From positions 1 through 36,893 of the forward strand of contig JAOZSB010000006.1 in NCBI GenBank assembly GCA_029939895.1: a stretch of 36,893 bases of DNA, written 5' to 3'. A model generated the notes under the pieces. It saw nothing but the letters and a program-made list of their open reading frames with translations. It was not told where the DNA came from and ran no database searches. Of this stretch, positions 2,611 through 13,982 are shown in pieces (the stretch's first letter is position 1; each line of letters opens with the position of its first letter). Source of the stretch: Desulfobacterales bacterium (GTDB lineage: Bacteria; Desulfobacterota; Desulfobacteria; Desulfobacterales; JAOZSB01). The translations under genes were made by a program, and so were the position numbers.

Positions 2611-4542
2611 TTATAGCCCGGCCCCGCTTACTTCAGGGCATCTGAGTCCCAGTCGTCTTTCTGTTAGTTTATCAGGGTCGTCAAAGCTCATGTTAATTTC
2701 TATTTCAGAGCCACTGGCCTTTGTTTTCATATTGGGATATATTTTTTTGAAAACGTGTATCATTGGGGCGTTTTCTGTTAAAACGGTTGCGTAAAAGCCC
2801 TTGTACTCATTTTCAAGTGCAATTTCTTCGAGCATGTCAATCATAAAAGAAGTAATTCCCATGCTCTGATATTCTTCTCTTGTTACAAATGCTACCTCGG
2901 CCCGGTTTTCTTCTACTTCTGCGTATGAGCCAATGGCAACAACGACCTTGCGACCCTTCTCCCTTACAATGCCAATGATGCTCATGTTGCGCTTGTAGTC
3001 AACGTTGGCCCATTGTTTTTGCATTACTTCCCGTGAAAATGACTTCATTTTGTAGAAGAATCTGTAGTAAATTGTTTTCTGGTTCAGGGAATAGAAGAAG
3101 TCCCTGCATTTGTCTTCGTCGGTCGGGAACATGGGGCGCAGTTCCACGGTCTGCCCTGTTCTAAGTTCCTTTGTGGTTTTGTAGCCCTCCACAAAGAAAA
3201 GATCATCCTGGGATGGCGGCAGTTGATCCGGGAATATGTAGTGATGCTTTTTTGCAAAACTAATAAGTTCTTCCCGGAACTTGGGATGTGCAATCTGGGT
3301 AAGTTCCATGACCCGCTGGTATACGCCCTTTCCCTGTAGTTCGGCAATTCCGTATTCTGTGACGACAAAGTTAACATCTGCCCTTGTTGTTGCAACTCCG
3401 GCCCCCTCGCTCAGGTGCGGGACAATCCTGGACACTGTTCCGTTCTGGGCAGTTGATGGCAGGGCGATTATGGAAAATCCGCCCTTGGACATTGCGCTTC
3501 CCCGTATAAAGTCAATCTGATCGCCGATTCCGCTGTAAAACATGTAACCCATTGAGTCAGAGCAGATCTGGCCTGTAATATCGAGCTCAAGTGCGCTGCC
3601 AATGGAGACCATGTTATCGTTTCTGGCTATGACTGACGGGTCGTTTACAAAGGATGACTGCCTGAAATAAAAGATCGGATTTTTGTTGACATAGTTGTAA
3701 ATTCGCTTTGTCCCCATGCACATGGAGGCGACAATCCTGCCATTAAGAAGCGATTTCTTTTTGTTTGTAATTACCTTTTTTTCAAGAAGCGGAATAAATG
3801 CATCGGTAATCATGGTGGTGTGTATGCCCAGATCCTTCTTGTTATGCAGGTGGCCCAGCAATGCATAGGGCAGATTGCCGTAACCGATCTGGATTGTAGA
3901 ACCGTTTTCTATCAATTGTGATACATATGAACCGATTCTGCGGGCAATCTCATTGTCTGCTATGTTGGGTTCAGCTTCAAGCAGCGGTTCCTCGTGGAGT
4001 ACCATGAAATTTATGTCGTCCACATGAACCACTCCATCACCCCAGGTTCTCGGCATCTTGGGATTAACCTGCGCTATTACAAATTCTGCGCTATCCATTG
4101 CTGCCTTTGTTACGTCCACAGAAACACCCAGGCTGCAATAACCAAACTTGTCCGGAGGGCTGACCATGATTAAGGCTACGTCAAGCACAACCCGCCCGCT
4201 GATGAAAAGGTTGCAAATCTGGGAAAGATAGGTTGGAGTATAATCAATTTTGCCCTCAAAGGCAGCTTTCCGCATTGCCTGGCTGATAAAAAACAGCTTT
4301 AATGTAAATCTTCTTGAAAAAGATTTTGTGTTCACAAATTCAGAAAGCGTACCCGGCAGCATCTGATAGAGGGTTATGTCCGTCAGGTTTACGTCCTTTG
4401 CCATTGCTCTTATCAGGTGAGGCGGCTCTCCGCAGCCAGTTCCGATAAAGACACGGCTGCCTCTCTCAATTTTTGAGATCGCATCCTCTGCGTTCAACAT
4501 TTTTTTTGGGCAGTGTCCCTTTAGCCAGTCTTTGTAATCCAT
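2611..4542 (-). CDS. acetyl-CoA hydrolase/transferase (4-hydroxybutyrate CoA-transferase-like) fused to a C-terminal GNAT acetyltransferase domain
   Basis: N-terminal CoA-transferase features (GTGCGEPPHLIRAM, QIGYGNLPYALLG, VVTEYGIAELQGKGV). C-terminal ~170 aa GNAT-like region (LRPMFPTDEDKCRDFF...AEVAFVTREEYQSMGITSFMIDMLEEIA). Confidence 0.88.
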   Translation of the reverse strand: MDYKDWLKGHCPKKMLNAEDAISKIERGSRVFIGTGCGEPPHLIRAMAKDVNLTDITLYQMLPGTLSEFVNTKSFSRRFTLKLFFISQAMRKAAFEGKIDYTPTYLSQICNLFISGRVVLDVALIMVSPPDKFGYCSLGVSVDVTKAAMDSAEFVIAQVNPKMPRTWGDGVVHVDDINFMVLHEEPLLEAEPNIADNEIARRIGSYVSQLIENGSTIQIGYGNLPYALLGHLHNKKDLGIHTTMITDAFIPLLEKKVITNKKKSLLNGRIVASMCMGTKRIYNYVNKNPIFYFRQSSFVNDPSVIARNDNMVSIGSALELDITGQICSDSMGYMFYSGIGDQIDFIRGSAMSKGGFSIIALPSTAQNGTVSRIVPHLSEGAGVATTRADVNFVVTEYGIAELQGKGVYQRVMELTQIAHPKFREELISFAKKHHYIFPDQLPPSQDDLFFVEGYKTTKELRTGQTVELRPMFPTDEDKCRDFFYSLNQKTIYYRFFYKMKSFSREVMQKQWANVDYKRNMSIIGIVREKGRKVVVAIGSYAEVEENRAEVAFVTREEYQSMGITSFMIDMLEEIALENEYKGFYATVLTENAPMIHVFKKIYPNMKTKASGSEIEINMSFDDPDKLTERRLGLRCPEVSGAGL

Positions 4543-7030: not shown

Positions 7031-9133
7031 CTAATCTTTATCGTAGCAGGTTATACAACAGGACAGGCAGCGATTCGATTCCACTTCTGCATCTTCTTCT
7101 GTGATTACGAGATCTGCCTCAACAAAGGACTGTATCCTTTCTTCGACTTCAAGCTCCGGCATTTCAACACGGGTTGTAGAATTTAATCCAGGTACTTTGT
7201 CAAAAATCGATACTGGAATATGCTTCTCCCGCAGAGATTTTTCAACAGGCGTTACTTCCTGATCTGTCATGTAAAGATGCATGGCCCGTGCAGCTCTTCT
7301 GCCGCCGCCAATTGCTGCGACAACCAGGGAAGCACCAGTATAGGCATCCCCTGCTGTGAAGATGTATGGAATATCCGATTGAAGTGTCTCTGGGTCGGCT
7401 TCAATTGAGTTCCAGCGGGTAAATCTCATGTCATCAAGGCTTTCCTTATCCTTAAAGGAAACATCGGGCCCCTGACCAATGGCAGTAATGAGCATGTCGA
7501 TCTCGATTACGGTTTCGCTGCCCTCGATTGGTACTGGCCTGCGTCTGCCGCTGGCATCTGGTTCACCGAGTTCCATTTTTAGATATTCAAGGCCCATTAC
7601 CTTACCGTTTGCATCGCCCATTACCTTTGTTGGCGCTGCAAGGAAATGGAACTGTATTCCTTCATGCTCCGCAGCCTCGATTTCCACCATATTTGCGGGC
7701 ATTTCGTTTCTGGTTCTCCGGTATACAATATAAACTTCCTTTGCACCCAGACGCACCAGGGTTCTAACGCAGTCAATGGCTGTATTTCCACCGCCAATAA
7801 CAGCGCATTTTTGGCCGATTGGGATGGGAGTGTCCTCAAGGCTGTCCTTTTGCTGCTGGAGAGCAAATCTTGTCAGAAAATCTATTCCAGTATAACAGCC
7901 GTCAAGGTCTTCGCCCTCAACGTTAAGCATATAGTCGCTCCAGGCACCGATTCCCAGAAAGATTGAATCAAATCCATCTTCTTTAAGGGATTTTGTGGTG
8001 TAATCTTCGCCCAGCCGCATGTTCATTTTTGCTTCAATACCTGTCTTGAGTATGCCCTGGCATTCCCAGTCAAGTACTTCCTTTGGAAGCCTGTATTCAG
8101 GGATGCCGTAGCGAATCATGCCGCCAAGCTTCGGCATTGCATCAAAGATTGTAACATCATGCCCCAGTCGCCTGAGGAAGAATGCACAGCTAAGACCAGC
8201 AGGGCCTCCACCCACGACTGCTGCTTTTTTGCCGGTATCTGGTGCGCATGATATTGGAAGTCTGCTTCCTGTATTCATTTCATAATCAGCAGCAAATCGT
8301 TTAAGCTGGTTGATTGAGACTGCTTCTTCTTCAATGCCTCGTCTGCAATAATCTTCACAGGGATGGGGGCAAACCCTTCCGCATGAGAGAAGCAGCGGGT
8401 TTCTTTCACGGATTGTTGCAACTGCACCAGCGTAATCTTTGTCCCGAACCTGGGCAATATATCTGGGGATGTCTATTTCTGCCGGGCATTCCTGGCGGCA
8501 TGGCGCAAGCCTGCCGTCTGTCTGGTTGAATGCAAGGAGTCTGTCTGACATTGTGACAACATGAAGTACGCTCTTGGGGCAGGCTCTTTCGCATGCTCCA
8601 CAGCCAACGCACTTGGATTCTATAACAGTGGGAAATCCTTTTTCGTTAATAAATATGGCATCAAAAAGGCAGGATCTTACGCAATCGCCATAACCCATAC
8701 AGCCGAATTCGCAGGTTTTTTTACCACCGTACATGGCAGCAATGGCGGCGCATGTTGTTGCGCCCATGTAGTGATATTTATTTTCAGCGCGCAGTCCACC
8801 GTCACAGGAGTTGCATGAAAGTTTGGATTCAGCAGTACCAGGGTCCATGCCCATGATGCTGGCAACTGCCGCAGTGGTTTCCGGGCCTGCAACAACACAA
8901 ACGCTTGGCAGAGCTTTACCGCCAACAACTGCTGCCGCAGCAGCTCCACAACCTGTAAATCCACATCCACCACAGTTTGCGCCTGCAAGGGACGATTCAA
9001 CCTCGGCAATCCGCGGGTCTTCATAAACATAAAAAACCTTTGATGCAATCGCAAGAACTGCACCAATGGTAAAACCCATCACACCCATTATCAATACAGG
9101 AACTAATACAGCGTCCAATGTAGATACCTCCAA
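7031..9133 (-). CDS. rnfB: RnfB (multi Fe-S electron transport subunit) fused to a C-terminal GltD-like NAD(P)H/FAD oxidoreductase
   Basis: N-terminal TM and ANCGGCGFTGC, GCMGYGDCVRSC, CVGCGACERACP. Then CRQECPAEIDIP / CGRVCPHPCEDYCRRG (GltD-type Fe-S), VVGGGPAGLSCAFFLRRLGHDVTIFD (FAD), VIGGGNTAIDCVRTLVRLGAKEVYIVYRR (NAD(P)). Confidence 0.92.
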   Translation of the reverse strand: MEVSTLDAVLVPVLIMGVMGFTIGAVLAIASKVFYVYEDPRIAEVESSLAGANCGGCGFTGCGAAAAAVVGGKALPSVCVVAGPETTAAVASIMGMDPGTAESKLSCNSCDGGLRAENKYHYMGATTCAAIAAMYGGKKTCEFGCMGYGDCVRSCLFDAIFINEKGFPTVIESKCVGCGACERACPKSVLHVVTMSDRLLAFNQTDGRLAPCRQECPAEIDIPRYIAQVRDKDYAGAVATIRERNPLLLSCGRVCPHPCEDYCRRGIEEEAVSINQLKRFAADYEMNTGSRLPISCAPDTGKKAAVVGGGPAGLSCAFFLRRLGHDVTIFDAMPKLGGMIRYGIPEYRLPKEVLDWECQGILKTGIEAKMNMRLGEDYTTKSLKEDGFDSIFLGIGAWSDYMLNVEGEDLDGCYTGIDFLTRFALQQQKDSLEDTPIPIGQKCAVIGGGNTAIDCVRTLVRLGAKEVYIVYRRTRNEMPANMVEIEAAEHEGIQFHFLAAPTKVMGDANGKVMGLEYLKMELGEPDASGRRRPVPIEGSETVIEIDMLITAIGQGPDVSFKDKESLDDMRFTRWNSIEADPETLQSDIPYIFTAGDAYTGASLVVAAIGGGRRAARAMHLYMTDQEVTPVEKSLREKHIPVSIFDKVPGLNSTTRVEMPELEVEERIQSFVEADLVITEEDAEVESNRCLSCCITCYDKD

Positions 9134-9140
9134 ATTTATT

Positions 9141-9192
9141 AAAAAAAAAGCGATTTCAAAAACAAACTTTGAGAGGCTTTTGAAATCGCTTT
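9141..9192 (-). terminator. Strong intrinsic terminator between rnfA and rnfB
   Basis: Minus sense: AAAGCGATTTCAAAA...TTTTGAAATCGCTTT (15-bp perfect stem) followed by a run of T (complement of A9141-9149). Confidence 0.75.
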
Positions 9193-9221: not shown

Positions 9222-9797
9222 TTAGACCATTCCCTTGAATGCAAAAAAGGAAAGGGACATGATTCCAGCCGTGATAAGACCAATTGAAGTATCCTGCAGG
9301 GCTTTTGGAACCCTTGCCAGAATAATTTTTTCCCGAACACCTGCAAAGAGGATCAGGGCAAGGCCAAAACCGGCTGCAAAGCCAAAGGATGTTACCAGGG
9401 ACTGCATAAAGGTGTATTCTTCGCCAATGTTTATAAGGCATGCACCAAAAACAGCACAGTTTGTTGTAATCAAGGGCAGAAAAATACCAAGGCCAGCATA
9501 AAGTGCAGGCATTGATTTTTTCAAAAACATTTCCACAAACTGCACCAGAGAAGCAATAATCACGATAAATGCAATTGTTGTCAAATATTGCAGATTGTAT
9601 TTTACGAGGAGCATGTGGTAAACAGACCATGTGATTCCACCGGCCAGCACCATGACAAAAATTACCGCCATTGACATTCCAAGGGCAGTTTCCATCTTTT
9701 TTGATGTTCCAAGAAACGGGCAGTTGCCCAGGAACTGTGCAAGAAGGATGTTATTTACAAATACGCAGCTTATAATAAGGACTATATAGTCGCCCAT
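9222..9797 (-). CDS. rnfA: Electron transport complex subunit RnfA
   Basis: MGDYIVLIISCVFVNNILLAQFLGNCPFLGTSKKMETA...TNCAVFGACL. Confidence 0.95.
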   Translation of the reverse strand: MGDYIVLIISCVFVNNILLAQFLGNCPFLGTSKKMETALGMSMAVIFVMVLAGGITWSVYHMLLVKYNLQYLTTIAFIVIIASLVQFVEMFLKKSMPALYAGLGIFLPLITTNCAVFGACLINIGEEYTFMQSLVTSFGFAAGFGLALILFAGVREKIILARVPKALQDTSIGLITAGIMSLSFFAFKGMV

Positions 9798-9903: not shown

Positions 9904-10506
9904 TTAATCGAAAAGGTTCATTATACAGAGCATGAGTCCCAGGCAGACAAAAGCTCCTGGTGCCTGTACCATGAAATTAAAAGGCTCGTAACTCGCCGGG
10001 AACAAGGTGTATGCCATATCACCCCATACCGTGAGAGTACCTTTGCCGAATATTTCTCTTAATCCGCCCAGAGCTGCCAGTGCCAGGGTAAAGCCGATTC
10101 CTATGCCCAGGCCGTCAGCCATTGAGTAGATTACGTTGTTCTTTGAAGCAAAAGCTTCTGCCCGGCCAAGCACTATGCAGTTAACAACAATCAGAGGAAT
10201 GAACATTCCAAGGTCGATAAACAATCCATAGACATATGCCTGCATGACCTGCTCAACCACAATAACAAAAGTTGCAATTATGATGATAAAACATGCAATC
10301 CTGACCTTTGTTGGAATAATTCCCTTGAGAAGTGAAACAAGAATATTCGAGCAAATCAACACAAAGGTGGTCGCCAGGCCCATGCCTATACCGTTTTTCA
10401 TGGAGGTTGTAACTCCGAGAACAGGGCAGAGACCGAGAACCAGTCTAAATGGGGGAATCTCTTCCCACAGTCCCTTTGTGAATTCTTGAGCTAACGATTT
10501 GGCCAT
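9904..10506 (-). CDS. rnfE: Electron transport complex subunit RnfE
   Basis: GLCPVLGVTTSMKNGIGMG...VVNCIVLGRAEAFA. Confidence 0.94.
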   Translation of the reverse strand: MAKSLAQEFTKGLWEEIPPFRLVLGLCPVLGVTTSMKNGIGMGLATTFVLICSNILVSLLKGIIPTKVRIACFIIIIATFVIVVEQVMQAYVYGLFIDLGMFIPLIVVNCIVLGRAEAFASKNNVIYSMADGLGIGIGFTLALAALGGLREIFGKGTLTVWGDMAYTLFPASYEPFNFMVQAPGAFVCLGLMLCIMNLFD

Positions 10507-10584: not shown

Positions 10585-11175
10585 CTATTCAAATTCCTGT
10601 AGTTTTTTCTGTATATCTGCTTCCACCTGCTTGTATGTTTCAAGCCCCATGGAAACCGCAGTACAAACTCCGCGTGAAGTTATGGTTGCACCGCTTATTG
10701 CAGAGATACCGCCGCCATCAGGGATTACCTTTACCGGCTTATCAAGTTCAAGCCCTGCGAACTGGGCAGAAAATGACGGATCATCCTTTGCGTTTGCGCC
10801 AAGTCCGGGGGTTTCCTGGTGGGTTGTAACACGAACGCCCTTGATTGTTTTTTCCTTAACATTCACGCCCACAAGTACGCCAACATTTCCGCCATATCCC
10901 TTGCCAATCAACTCAAAGGCCACCATGGACGGAACACCATCAACTTTACCGACAAAGAAGTTGGTCTCTTTCTCGTCAATTGTGAGTTTAAACCTGTCAG
11001 TCACTGGGTCGTTGGATGTCCCGGTCAGAAGATCCTTAATTGCCGGGCCGACAACAAACTTAAGCTTGTTATTTTCGATATTGGGCTTAAGGTTTTTTTC
11101 CAATGAGGCCAGCACACCGCCAGATAAACAACTGAGCATGGTGAGAACCACTACCATCATTATTTTTTCTTTCAT
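10585..11175 (-). CDS. rnfG: Electron transport complex subunit RnfG
   Basis: FMN-attachment motif SGATITSRGV; HQETPGLGA. Confidence 0.94.
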   Translation of the reverse strand: MKEKIMMVVVLTMLSCLSGGVLASLEKNLKPNIENNKLKFVVGPAIKDLLTGTSNDPVTDRFKLTIDEKETNFFVGKVDGVPSMVAFELIGKGYGGNVGVLVGVNVKEKTIKGVRVTTHQETPGLGANAKDDPSFSAQFAGLELDKPVKVIPDGGGISAISGATITSRGVCTAVSMGLETYKQVEADIQKKLQEFE

Positions 11176-11177
11176 TT

Positions 11178-12137
11178 TTATTCAACCCTTCCAAATGCTT
11201 TAGGCTTGATCTTGCCGAACAGCGGACTTGCAGTGTTCATGAGTATGATGGCAAAAACCACACCATCATAGTACGTGCCGATGTTCCTTATTAAAACGGT
11301 TAAAAAACCACCACCTATTCCGTATAAAATCATGGGTAGAAAACTGACTGGCGAGGATGCATCATCGGTTGCAAGAAAAAATGCTCCGATAAGGGTATAA
11401 CCGGTAAGAACGTGGAATACCGGGCCGGCAAATCTAACCGGGTCAGCCATGTTGAACATCAAGGCTGTAATGGCGACTCCGCCAATAAATGACAAGGCGA
11501 TTTCCCAGCGGATAAAGCCCCTGAGTATAAGATAAACACCGCCCAGGATAAGCCCAAGGCTAAAGGTAGAGCCAATGCCGCCGGACTGTTTGCCAAGGAG
11601 AAGATCAAGGGTGCTCCATGCTTCTGCACCTGTTGAACCGAGGCTTCTTGCTGCTGTAAGCGGGTATACCATACTGAAATCAAAATCATAGCCTGTAAGG
11701 GCAACGTTGAAGTCAAGATAATGCGGCCATGAAACCATGATTATGGCGATTGCGAGAAGGGGCGGGCTGAAAGGATTGCCGCCTATTCCACCGAAGATCA
11801 TCTTGCCTATGATAATGGCAATTGCAGAACCTAAAACCACGAGCCACCACGGAACCGTAGCCGGCAGGAGCATTGCAAACAAAAGCCCTACCAGTGCAGC
11901 GTTTCCATCGTCAACGGTCTGGGGCCGTTTGAGAATAAGGTTCATGATGTACTCCCAGATGATTGAACAGCCTACGGACAGAGCGATAACAGCCATAGCT
12001 GGCACGCCCCACATCAACAAGCCGACAATAACAGCAGGCAGTGCTGCAAAAATTGTGTGATAGGTCTTGTTCTGCAGGCTGCTCCCATAATGGACAAAGG
12101 GAGCGTGGGACACTATGAATTTGGGATTGTTACTCAT
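11178..12137 (-). CDS. rnfD: Electron transport complex subunit RnfD
   Basis: VSHAPFVHYGSSLQNKTYHTIFAALPA; GGIGGNPFSPPLLAIA; start overlaps rnfC stop by one base. Confidence 0.93.
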   Translation of the reverse strand: MSNNPKFIVSHAPFVHYGSSLQNKTYHTIFAALPAVIVGLLMWGVPAMAVIALSVGCSIIWEYIMNLILKRPQTVDDGNAALVGLLFAMLLPATVPWWLVVLGSAIAIIIGKMIFGGIGGNPFSPPLLAIAIIMVSWPHYLDFNVALTGYDFDFSMVYPLTAARSLGSTGAEAWSTLDLLLGKQSGGIGSTFSLGLILGGVYLILRGFIRWEIALSFIGGVAITALMFNMADPVRFAGPVFHVLTGYTLIGAFFLATDDASSPVSFLPMILYGIGGGFLTVLIRNIGTYYDGVVFAIILMNTASPLFGKIKPKAFGRVE

Positions 12138-13537
12138 TATTTTTTTGCCTCATTTTCTTCTGCCACAGCCTCTGCGTCTTCATCGGCTGAATCAGCATCT
12201 GCTGCTTCAGCTTCAAGCCTGGCGAGTTCGTATTTCGCAAGTTTTATATATTGGAAAACCGGCATTTGTGTTGTGCAGACAAACCCGCACAAACCGCAAT
12301 CAATGCATGAATAAAGATCGTATTCATCGGCTGCAAGTTCAAAATCTCCTGATTCAAGCACCCTTGCAAGCATGTTGACCTGAATCTTGGAGGGGCAGAC
12401 CCTGCAACAGTCCCCGCAGTCTATGCAGGGGTAATCTGACACGACTGGAATGTTGCTGCTGTCCTGAACCATCAGGGCATCTATTGATGAAGTTACAGGC
12501 ATATCAAGTGAAAACAGTGCGGTTCCGGTCATTGGGCCGCCGTTTATGATCCTGTCCCGCTCACCTGCGGTTATTCTCAAAGCTGCAAAAACATCGGAAA
12601 TCGGTGTCCCCAGAACAACATCCACCAGGGTTTTTTTACCGTTTTTATCAATAACGGTGACAATTTTTCTGGTTGGAATTTTGCCCTCTGTAATGGCTTT
12701 GCCAATTGCAGCGACCGCCTCAATGCTCATGAAGGTGATTCCAGAGTCCTCAAAGGGCTTGTCCGAAAGTAGCGCCCTGCCGAGATAGTCGTTTACAACC
12801 AGATATGGACTGGCGGTTGGATACTCCATTCCAACACCGGCAAGCTCTGCGCCAACGCTTTCATAATTTTGACCAGCGTCCCTTAACAGGGTAAGGATCG
12901 CTTTTTCGATTCCTGTTGCCTGTTTTAGAATTTTGATTCCAGCCCTGACGTTGTCCACCTCTGAGTTTGCAACATACTGGCGGGTCATGCAAAGAAGATC
13001 CTCATCAGCTCCTGTAATAATCAGGGTGTCAACTGGTTTTTCCGGATTTTGAAATACGGAAAAGTCAGGTGCGCCAGGAACGTTTGCAAGAAATTCTACA
13101 AGATGAGCCAGGTCCGGGCCTTGAGGAGCTTCCTCTTCCGGGGCTTCTTCTGCTGCTTCTTCAGCTTCGGCTGCTTCTTCTTTTTTGGCAGGAGCCTCAG
13201 GAGCCACATCTTCTTCTGCTTCGGCAGCAGTTGGCGTGATGGTTATTGCTGTCCAGTCGTCACCAAAATCACCGGGAAAGGCAGAAACTGTTTTTACCTC
13301 ACCGGAAACCGGGGATGTAGCGTAAATGGAAGATTCCTGGGAGATTGTGAGCTTGTCACCTTCCATGACAGTATCGCCTGGTTTGGTTCCTTCCGAGGCT
13401 ATGCCCACAAGTTTTTCTTTGACGTAAACCGTGACATTGTCAGGAGCAGGCAGCACAACCGGGATATAATTACCCTGGTTCATGTCCTCGTATACGAGAG
13501 TTGGCTTTTTAAAAACAAAAAAGGGTCTTTTAATCAT
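12137..13537 (-). CDS. rnfC: Electron transport complex subunit RnfC (divergent)
   Basis: C-terminal CIDCGDCCRVCP and CIDCGLCGFVCTTQMP; barrel-sandwich N-terminus; INGGPMTGTAL motif. Degenerate central FMN/NADH region. Confidence 0.88.
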   Translation of the reverse strand: MIKRPFFVFKKPTLVYEDMNQGNYIPVVLPAPDNVTVYVKEKLVGIASEGTKPGDTVMEGDKLTISQESSIYATSPVSGEVKTVSAFPGDFGDDWTAITITPTAAEAEEDVAPEAPAKKEEAAEAEEAAEEAPEEEAPQGPDLAHLVEFLANVPGAPDFSVFQNPEKPVDTLIITGADEDLLCMTRQYVANSEVDNVRAGIKILKQATGIEKAILTLLRDAGQNYESVGAELAGVGMEYPTASPYLVVNDYLGRALLSDKPFEDSGITFMSIEAVAAIGKAITEGKIPTRKIVTVIDKNGKKTLVDVVLGTPISDVFAALRITAGERDRIINGGPMTGTALFSLDMPVTSSIDALMVQDSSNIPVVSDYPCIDCGDCCRVCPSKIQVNMLARVLESGDFELAADEYDLYSCIDCGLCGFVCTTQMPVFQYIKLAKYELARLEAEAADADSADEDAEAVAEENEAKK

Positions 13538-13586: not shown

Positions 13587-13982
13587 CTATTGAACCTTAA
13601 CATGGCATTCATTGCAATCAACCGGCTTGACATCAAATTCTTTATGACATCCTATGCACTGGGTATGGAGGGCATCAGCACGCTTAATCATATCCTCTGA
13701 GCCTTCACCCTTGAGGTGACATTCGCCGCATGCTTCAGGAACTTCCTCTTCGTCTTCCATTGTATGATGGCAATCGAGACATGAAAGGCCGATGCCAGCG
13801 TCAGAGGCGTGCAGCTTGTGGTCAAATGTTGCTGTACCAGTCACTGTTGAATAAGCCACACGATATGGCGTCTCCGGAGTCGGAGCAGAATATGTGGCAA
13901 AGCAGAACACTCCGACGATCAGCAATCCGATTCCAATCTTAAGTAACGTCGGCAATCCTTTTTGTTCGTCCATTGAGTTCAT
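13587..13982 (-). CDS. Membrane-anchored tetraheme cytochrome c3-family protein
   Basis: N-terminal TM. Four CXXCH: CLDCH, CGECH, CIGCH, CNECH. First gene of the rnf cluster. Confidence 0.88.
   Translation of the reverse strand: MNSMDEQKGLPTLLKIGIGLLIVGVFCFATYSAPTPETPYRVAYSTVTGTATFDHKLHASDAGIGLSCLDCHHTMEDEEEVPEACGECHLKGEGSEDMIKRADALHTQCIGCHKEFDVKPVDCNECHVKVQ

Follow-up and report, generated by a model that had tools for sequence, protein, structure and literature searches.

In the canonical Rnf complex electrons pass from ferredoxin through RnfB, RnfA/E, RnfG, RnfD and RnfC to NAD+, with Na+ coupling placed at RnfA/E (PMC11889175), and the usual picture of Rnf in sulfate reducers is that of a ferredoxin:NAD+ pump; many Desulfobacterales, sulfate reducers included, carry a type in which RnfB is fused to a GltD-type FAD/NAD(P) module. 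One such fusion is encoded in the window analysed here (the whole stretch of 36,893 nucleotides from an uncultured Desulfobacterales bacterium, a relative of sulfate reducers), and the question that it raises is where pyridine nucleotides and electrons enter and leave a complex of this kind.

The rnfB-gltD gene and its operon

The minus-strand ORF 9133-7031 joins an RnfB domain (residues 1-200) to a complete GltD-type module (208-696) and is the last gene of an operon with the order cyt c3 (tetrahaem cytochrome c3/TmcA-like), rnfC, rnfD, rnfG, rnfE, rnfA, rnfB-gltD; all six Rnf subunits (RnfABCDGE) are encoded together in the window (Table 1). The frame is open for the 700 codons given in a preliminary description of the locus, but the likely start is TTG 9118, with a product of 695 aa: the ribosome-binding site GGAGGT at 9131-9126 lies 7 nt before this codon and fits it better than TTG 9133.

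Table 1. Coordinates of the rnf operon in the window, with parts of the fusion protein (aa, residue numbers) and the second RnfB-GltD paralogue
Feature	Position	Strand	Remarks
Tetrahaem cytochrome c3/TmcA-like gene	13587..13982	-	4 CxxCH; N-terminal hydrophobic segment; first operon gene
rnfC	12137..13537	-	Retains the RnfC fold and two [4Fe-4S] motifs; has lost the FMN/NADH glycine loop and the acidic motif; PF01512 absent
rnfD	11178..12137	-	Tyr in place of the FMN-anchoring Thr (T156 of A. woodii); Ser at the RBF Asn123 position
rnfG	10585..11175	-	Covalent-FMN SGAT threonine kept; above cut-off of NCBIfam RnfG_DVU2794
rnfE	9904..10506	-	Profile matches
rnfA	9222..9797	-	Profile matches
Terminator-like hairpin between rnfA and rnfB-gltD	9138..9192	-	17 bp, then U9; z -5.65; 12-nt loop
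rnfB-gltD fusion gene	7031..9133	-	700 codons from TTG 9133, uninterrupted; likely true start TTG 9118 (695 aa)
RnfB domain, aa 1-200	8534..9133	-	Predicted TM helix ~5-33
GltD-type module, aa 208-626	7256..8512	-	C212/C216/C251/C255/C259/C263; Lys278; FAD motif GGGPAG; NAD(P) motif GGGNTA; YRR
C-terminal tail, aa 654-696	7046..7174	-	RCLSCCITC; aligns with N-terminal segment of NfnL
Second RnfB-GltD paralogue	G000:C194:205-2214 (L120), also L124-L127, L129		Degenerate NAD(P) Rossmann and YRR motifs

Pfam matches above the cut-off were found in the fusion protein for PF04060 (residues 49-80), Fer4 (168-187), PF14691 (210-288) and PF07992 (303-610), the last two together with two Rossmann motifs as in GltD-type modules; NCBIfam models of RnfB cover approximately residues 1-200 and those of GltD residues 208-696. 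The open frame and these domains, which include the three Pfam families proposed for a search in the preliminary description (PF04060, PF14691 and PF07992), bear out its reading of RnfB and a GltD-like module within one ORF. For the RnfB part the best solved relative is A. woodii RnfB (9eri_B, residues 6-200); GltD modules are matched by residues 199-694. The predicted model of the protein includes a helix at 5-33 and is of good confidence across much of the GltD part (mean pLDDT 80).

The RnfB domain contains the PF04060 cluster (C54, C57, C62 and C79), two ferredoxin-type clusters (C141-C185) and the extra invariant residues C110 and C128. The three cysteine motifs first noticed in the protein, as well as GGGPAG and GGGNTA, are all found in it. 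The usual N-terminal CxxC is absent from the GltD module and sits in the C-terminal RCLSC tail, which from its sequence appears to be a displaced cluster half-site that supplies the N-terminal CxxC of ordinary GltD.

Between rnfA and rnfB-gltD lies a strong hairpin followed by U9, and the expression level of rnfB-gltD may therefore differ from that of the rest of the operon; this hairpin is not general among relatives, since 13 of 97 loci have one by loose criteria. Elsewhere in the window, a single frame at 2611-4542 (minus strand) joins a GNAT acetyltransferase domain to the C-terminus of an acetyl-CoA hydrolase/transferase.

Distribution and earlier description of the fusion

Full-length homologues of the fusion, with 55-73% identity, were found in 41 of the 58 sampled genomes of the order (window genome included); the systematic part of the search covered the phylum of the window, and in the phylum sample about 21 of 247 genomes had a full-length match at roughly at least 50% identity. 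In addition, 80 loci were taken from GTDB genomes, among them those of Desulfonema magnum, Desulfosarcina, Desulfobacter latus, Desulfocicer vacuolatum and the Olavius algarvensis Delta 4 symbiont.

The fusion has a published counterpart: according to PMC5109826, the Rnf of D. toluolica Tol2 has an RnfB of ~700 aa that carries NAD+-binding sites, while its RnfC is devoid of NADH-oxidoreductase and ligand-binding domains. This "D. toluolica Tol2-type Rnf", or Rnf2, with its large RnfB, RnfC without the NADH domain and linked cytochrome encoded within the rnf2 cluster, was reported together with the detection by proteomics of five Rnf2 subunits under all conditions tested, and its mode of action was left by its describers to future experiment (PMC5109826). 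In the window, RnfB of ~700 aa carries an NAD(P)-binding module, RnfC lacks PF01512/SLBB and a c-type cytochrome gene lies in the cluster; judged by sequence, the complex is a Tol2-type (Rnf2) Rnf and the fusion itself is known, so that the idea of a unique or novel fusion was rejected. The preliminary description named as grounds for its refutation a fusion ubiquitous and already characterised in related taxa, and this is largely what the 41 of 58 genomes and PMC5109826 show. An artefact of assembly, annotation or frameshift that joins two neighbouring genes has a negligible probability and was ruled out by the tens of independent assemblies, closed chromosomes included, in which full-length homologues run without interruption; the proteomic detection of Rnf2 subunits in D. 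multivorans (PMC5109826) also speaks against it.

An RnfC above the canonical cut-off is present in 14 of the 41 fusion-bearing genomes, and therefore both Rnf types coexist; D. multivorans and D. autotrophicum each carry both (PMC5109826). In the window genome (4.7 Mb, 94% complete) a single RnfD was detected and no canonical Rnf was found beside the fused one; four other genes of this genome match PF01512, the window RnfC not being among them.

Conserved and altered residues in the GltD module and the other Rnf subunits

The nearest solved modules, both by sequence and by fold, are those of Nfn-ABC and StnC, and the best structural matches of the predicted fusion model are Nfn-ABC subunit A, StnC and NfnABC subunit A. 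In bifurcating NfnB/NfnL a Glu is the ligand to the FAD-proximal [4Fe-4S] cluster; in the fusion this position is occupied by Lys278, and StnC likewise has a Lys (K170). NADPH is oxidised in StnC at a non-bifurcating FAD (PMC10482914) and linear electron transfer is thus the simplest reading of the GltD FAD of the fusion, which by analogy is probably non-bifurcating too; we infer that this module most likely prefers NADPH over NADH.

Among 82 complete rnf-linked fusions, the surveyed RnfB and GltD cysteines are conserved at 99-100%, except C107, C316, C455 and C693, and the motifs GGGN[TS]A (GGGNSA being counted with GGGNTA) and YRR are intact in 73; in the remaining nine, all divergent and from more distant lineages, the NAD(P) site is degenerate. 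The NAD(P) site is degenerate, too, in a second full-length RnfB-GltD paralogue (~38% identical) that is often found beside a NuoF-like gene, as it is in the window genome, the adjoining protein being a NuoF/HydB-like subunit of 595-626 aa (PF01512, PF10589). In some other genomes of the phylum, rnf clusters whose RnfC and RnfB-GltD are both degenerate (L215, L219 and L229; also L220) are followed or flanked by molybdopterin formate-dehydrogenase-type genes, and an in-frame TGA in HCARLUH, typical of selenocysteine, occurs in L215, L219 and L229. Both variants are united in L216, where a NuoF-like gene, a tetrahaem cytochrome, rnfCDGEA and an RnfB-GltD with a degenerate NAD(P) site are encoded.

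To the earlier literature we add a survey of 166 clusters with rnfC next to rnfD, classed by the FMN/NADH glycine loop of RnfC. The loop is intact in 45 clusters and missing in 121, a loss confirmed column by column in the alignment; it is missing in all 83 clusters with a fused RnfB downstream, none of the 45 intact-loop clusters has a fused RnfB, and the upstream multihaem cytochrome found in 98 clusters is accompanied in all 98 by an altered RnfC. The upstream cytochrome is absent from 11 fused clusters, and in some altered-RnfC clusters RnfB is short or unlinked. On a tree of RnfA+E+G (94 rows, quick method) the RnfC state changes about twice, the fusion four times and the cytochrome five times, and the cluster counts are therefore not independent events; the association of RnfC loop loss with the fusion is that of one deep clade and one other group, not of 83 independent events.

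In RnfC, none of the 119 altered proteins examined has lost any of the six surveyed [4Fe-4S] cysteines, so that the altered RnfC probably still carries electrons. The covalent-FMN threonine of RnfD, Thr153 in C. tetanomorphum and Thr156 in A. woodii (PMC9588780, PMC11889175), is present in 44/44 intact clusters and in 8/117 altered ones, and is replaced in 79 of the 83 fused clusters (kept in four), a change that need not imply the loss of FMN; the RBF Asp is mostly replaced by Glu in altered clusters. The FMN threonine of RnfG is present in all 160 proteins and the cluster cysteines of RnfA/E are nearly invariant. By these residues, the altered type spares the limb RnfB-RnfA/E-RnfG and degrades the limb RnfD-RnfC-NAD; that the RnfC site and the RnfD threonine are lost together offers concrete residues to probe, and the clade amounts to a natural experiment that bears on which Rnf parts pumping requires. 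The altered RnfC and RnfD of the operon had gone unmentioned in the preliminary description. A decahaem cytochrome upstream and an RnfC without the FMN/NADH loop occur also in L259, L260 and L121, the first two having a short RnfB and resembling the Desulfovibrio dhcA-rnf operon; L152, L157 and L158 have an altered-type rnfCDGEA and a cytochrome with no rnfB nearby, and any RnfB partner must be encoded elsewhere.

Electron path, competing readings and known systems

The NAD(P)H port very probably sits on RnfB, while the exit of electrons to the cytochrome is finely balanced; the combined reading, in which a Tol2-type (Rnf2) complex has its pyridine-nucleotide port moved from RnfC to RnfB and acts as an ion-coupled oxidoreductase between NAD(P)H (probably NADPH) and cytochrome c, is the best of those considered but may be held and doubted in equal measure. 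A hydride from NAD(P)H, most likely NADPH, would reduce the FAD of the GltD module, and single electrons would move through the Fe-S clusters of GltD and RnfB to the [2Fe-2S] cluster of RnfA/E, to the FMN of RnfG on the periplasmic side and through the membrane-anchored cytochrome c3 to the periplasmic cytochrome pool, with Na+ or H+ export coupled at RnfA/E; in the reverse mode, cytochrome electrons and the ion gradient would reduce NAD(P)+. This reading is supported by the intact FAD/NAD(P) module, its resemblance to StnC, the conservation of the RnfB Fe-S and RnfA/E cysteines and of the RnfG threonine, the lost RnfC loop, the replaced RnfD threonine and the tetrahaem cytochrome c gene in the operon, and the Rnf of Methanosarcina acetivorans is a precedent for it (PMC4023990). 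Against it count the retained RnfC [4Fe-4S] cysteines, the few changes on the tree, the short or unlinked RnfB of some altered clusters, the 11 fused clusters without upstream cytochrome, the nine degenerate NAD(P) sites and the case of D. alaskensis, in which the decahaem cytochrome gene of the rnf operon (dhcA) is almost without fitness effect, though Rnf is needed (PMC4215793).

A soluble NAD(P)H entry or exit wired to RnfB, as first proposed for this protein, agrees with the FAD/NAD(P) motifs and Fe-S cysteines conserved in close fused homologues and with the oxidation of NADPH by StnC. The GltD module had been regarded as an extra part of an Rnf that is canonical in all else; what the operon shows looks instead like a relocation, because the FMN/NADH site of RnfC and the FMN threonine of RnfD are lost and a cytochrome c3 gene lies in the operon. 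If both the NAD(P) site on RnfB and the cytochrome exit are true, models of energy conservation need another reaction, from NADPH to the periplasmic cytochrome network.

The retained clusters of RnfC and the near-null phenotype of dhcA keep alive an exit through RnfC: with the NAD(P)H port on RnfB and a port for ferredoxin or another cytoplasmic carrier on RnfC, electrons would follow the full U-shaped path and leave by the RnfC [4Fe-4S] clusters, the cytochrome being accessory. The preserved RnfC fold and the contrast between dhcA and rnf mutants in D. alaskensis (PMC4215793) favour this unlikely arrangement, which has to contend with the RnfD threonine replaced in most altered clusters and the RBF Asp mostly changed to Glu, and with a linked cytochrome gene in nearly all close relatives. 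Less probable still is an entry of ferredoxin at RnfB as before, the GltD module making the complex a ferredoxin/cytochrome:NAD(P)+ reductase with a physiological flux towards NADPH for biosynthesis; the ferredoxin-type clusters of RnfB are retained and Rnf is reversible (PMC11889175), but if ferredoxin and NAD(P) meet on the same subunit, electrons need not cross RnfA/E and ion coupling is bypassed. The homology of GltD with bifurcating NfnL raises the case of a GltD FAD that bifurcates NADPH electrons as NfnB does, to a low-potential acceptor via RnfB and to a high-potential acceptor; it is very improbable, being disfavoured by Lys278, a Lys as in StnC and not a Glu, at the proximal-cluster ligand position and by the lack of a recognised NfnA/NfnS-like partner gene in the rnf operon of the window.

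The variants of the protein suggest that RnfB-GltD may be an adaptor whose own NAD(P) site is retained in the absence of another donor subunit. More tentatively, and short of an even chance, the Rnf of this clade could be half-path pumps in which RnfB-GltD-based donor modules, drawing on an NAD(P)H site of their own, on a NuoF-like subunit or on a formate dehydrogenase with selenocysteine, deliver electrons through RnfA/E and RnfG to a periplasmic cytochrome, with no return via RnfD/RnfC; if so, sulfate reducers would have in them a family of ion-pumping oxidoreductases that pass electrons from a donor to cytochrome c.

In comparison with known systems, the complex shares with the canonical Rnf of A. 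woodii and C. tetanomorphum the RnfABCDGE set, the RnfA/E cluster cysteines, the RnfG FMN threonine and the RnfB clusters; in contrast, its RnfC has no FMN/NADH site, its RnfD has no FMN threonine, RnfB carries GltD and a c-type cytochrome is encoded in the operon. The GltD modules of StnC and Nfn-ABC (8oh5, 9bov, 9n5u) have the same fold, ~36-42% identical in the structural match, and share the Lys at the proximal-cluster ligand position, the C-terminal RCLxC tail and the YRR motif, but the module described here is fused to RnfB and a membrane ion pump, not to NuoG/FdhF-like domains and a NuoF-type bifurcating core. The Rnf of Methanosarcina acetivorans likewise has a co-transcribed multihaem cytochrome c, to which RnfG has been modelled to pass electrons, but it is archaeal, takes electrons from ferredoxin, shows no NAD(P) activity and has no GltD fusion described (PMC4023990). 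The Tol2-type Rnf, Rnf2 of Desulfococcus multivorans, likewise has an RnfB of ~700 aa that includes NAD+-binding sites, an RnfC that lacks the NADH-oxidoreductase and SLBB domains, and a cytochrome gene in the cluster; nothing essential differs, except that D. multivorans also has a canonical Rnf1, whereas the fused Rnf is the only one found in the window genome.
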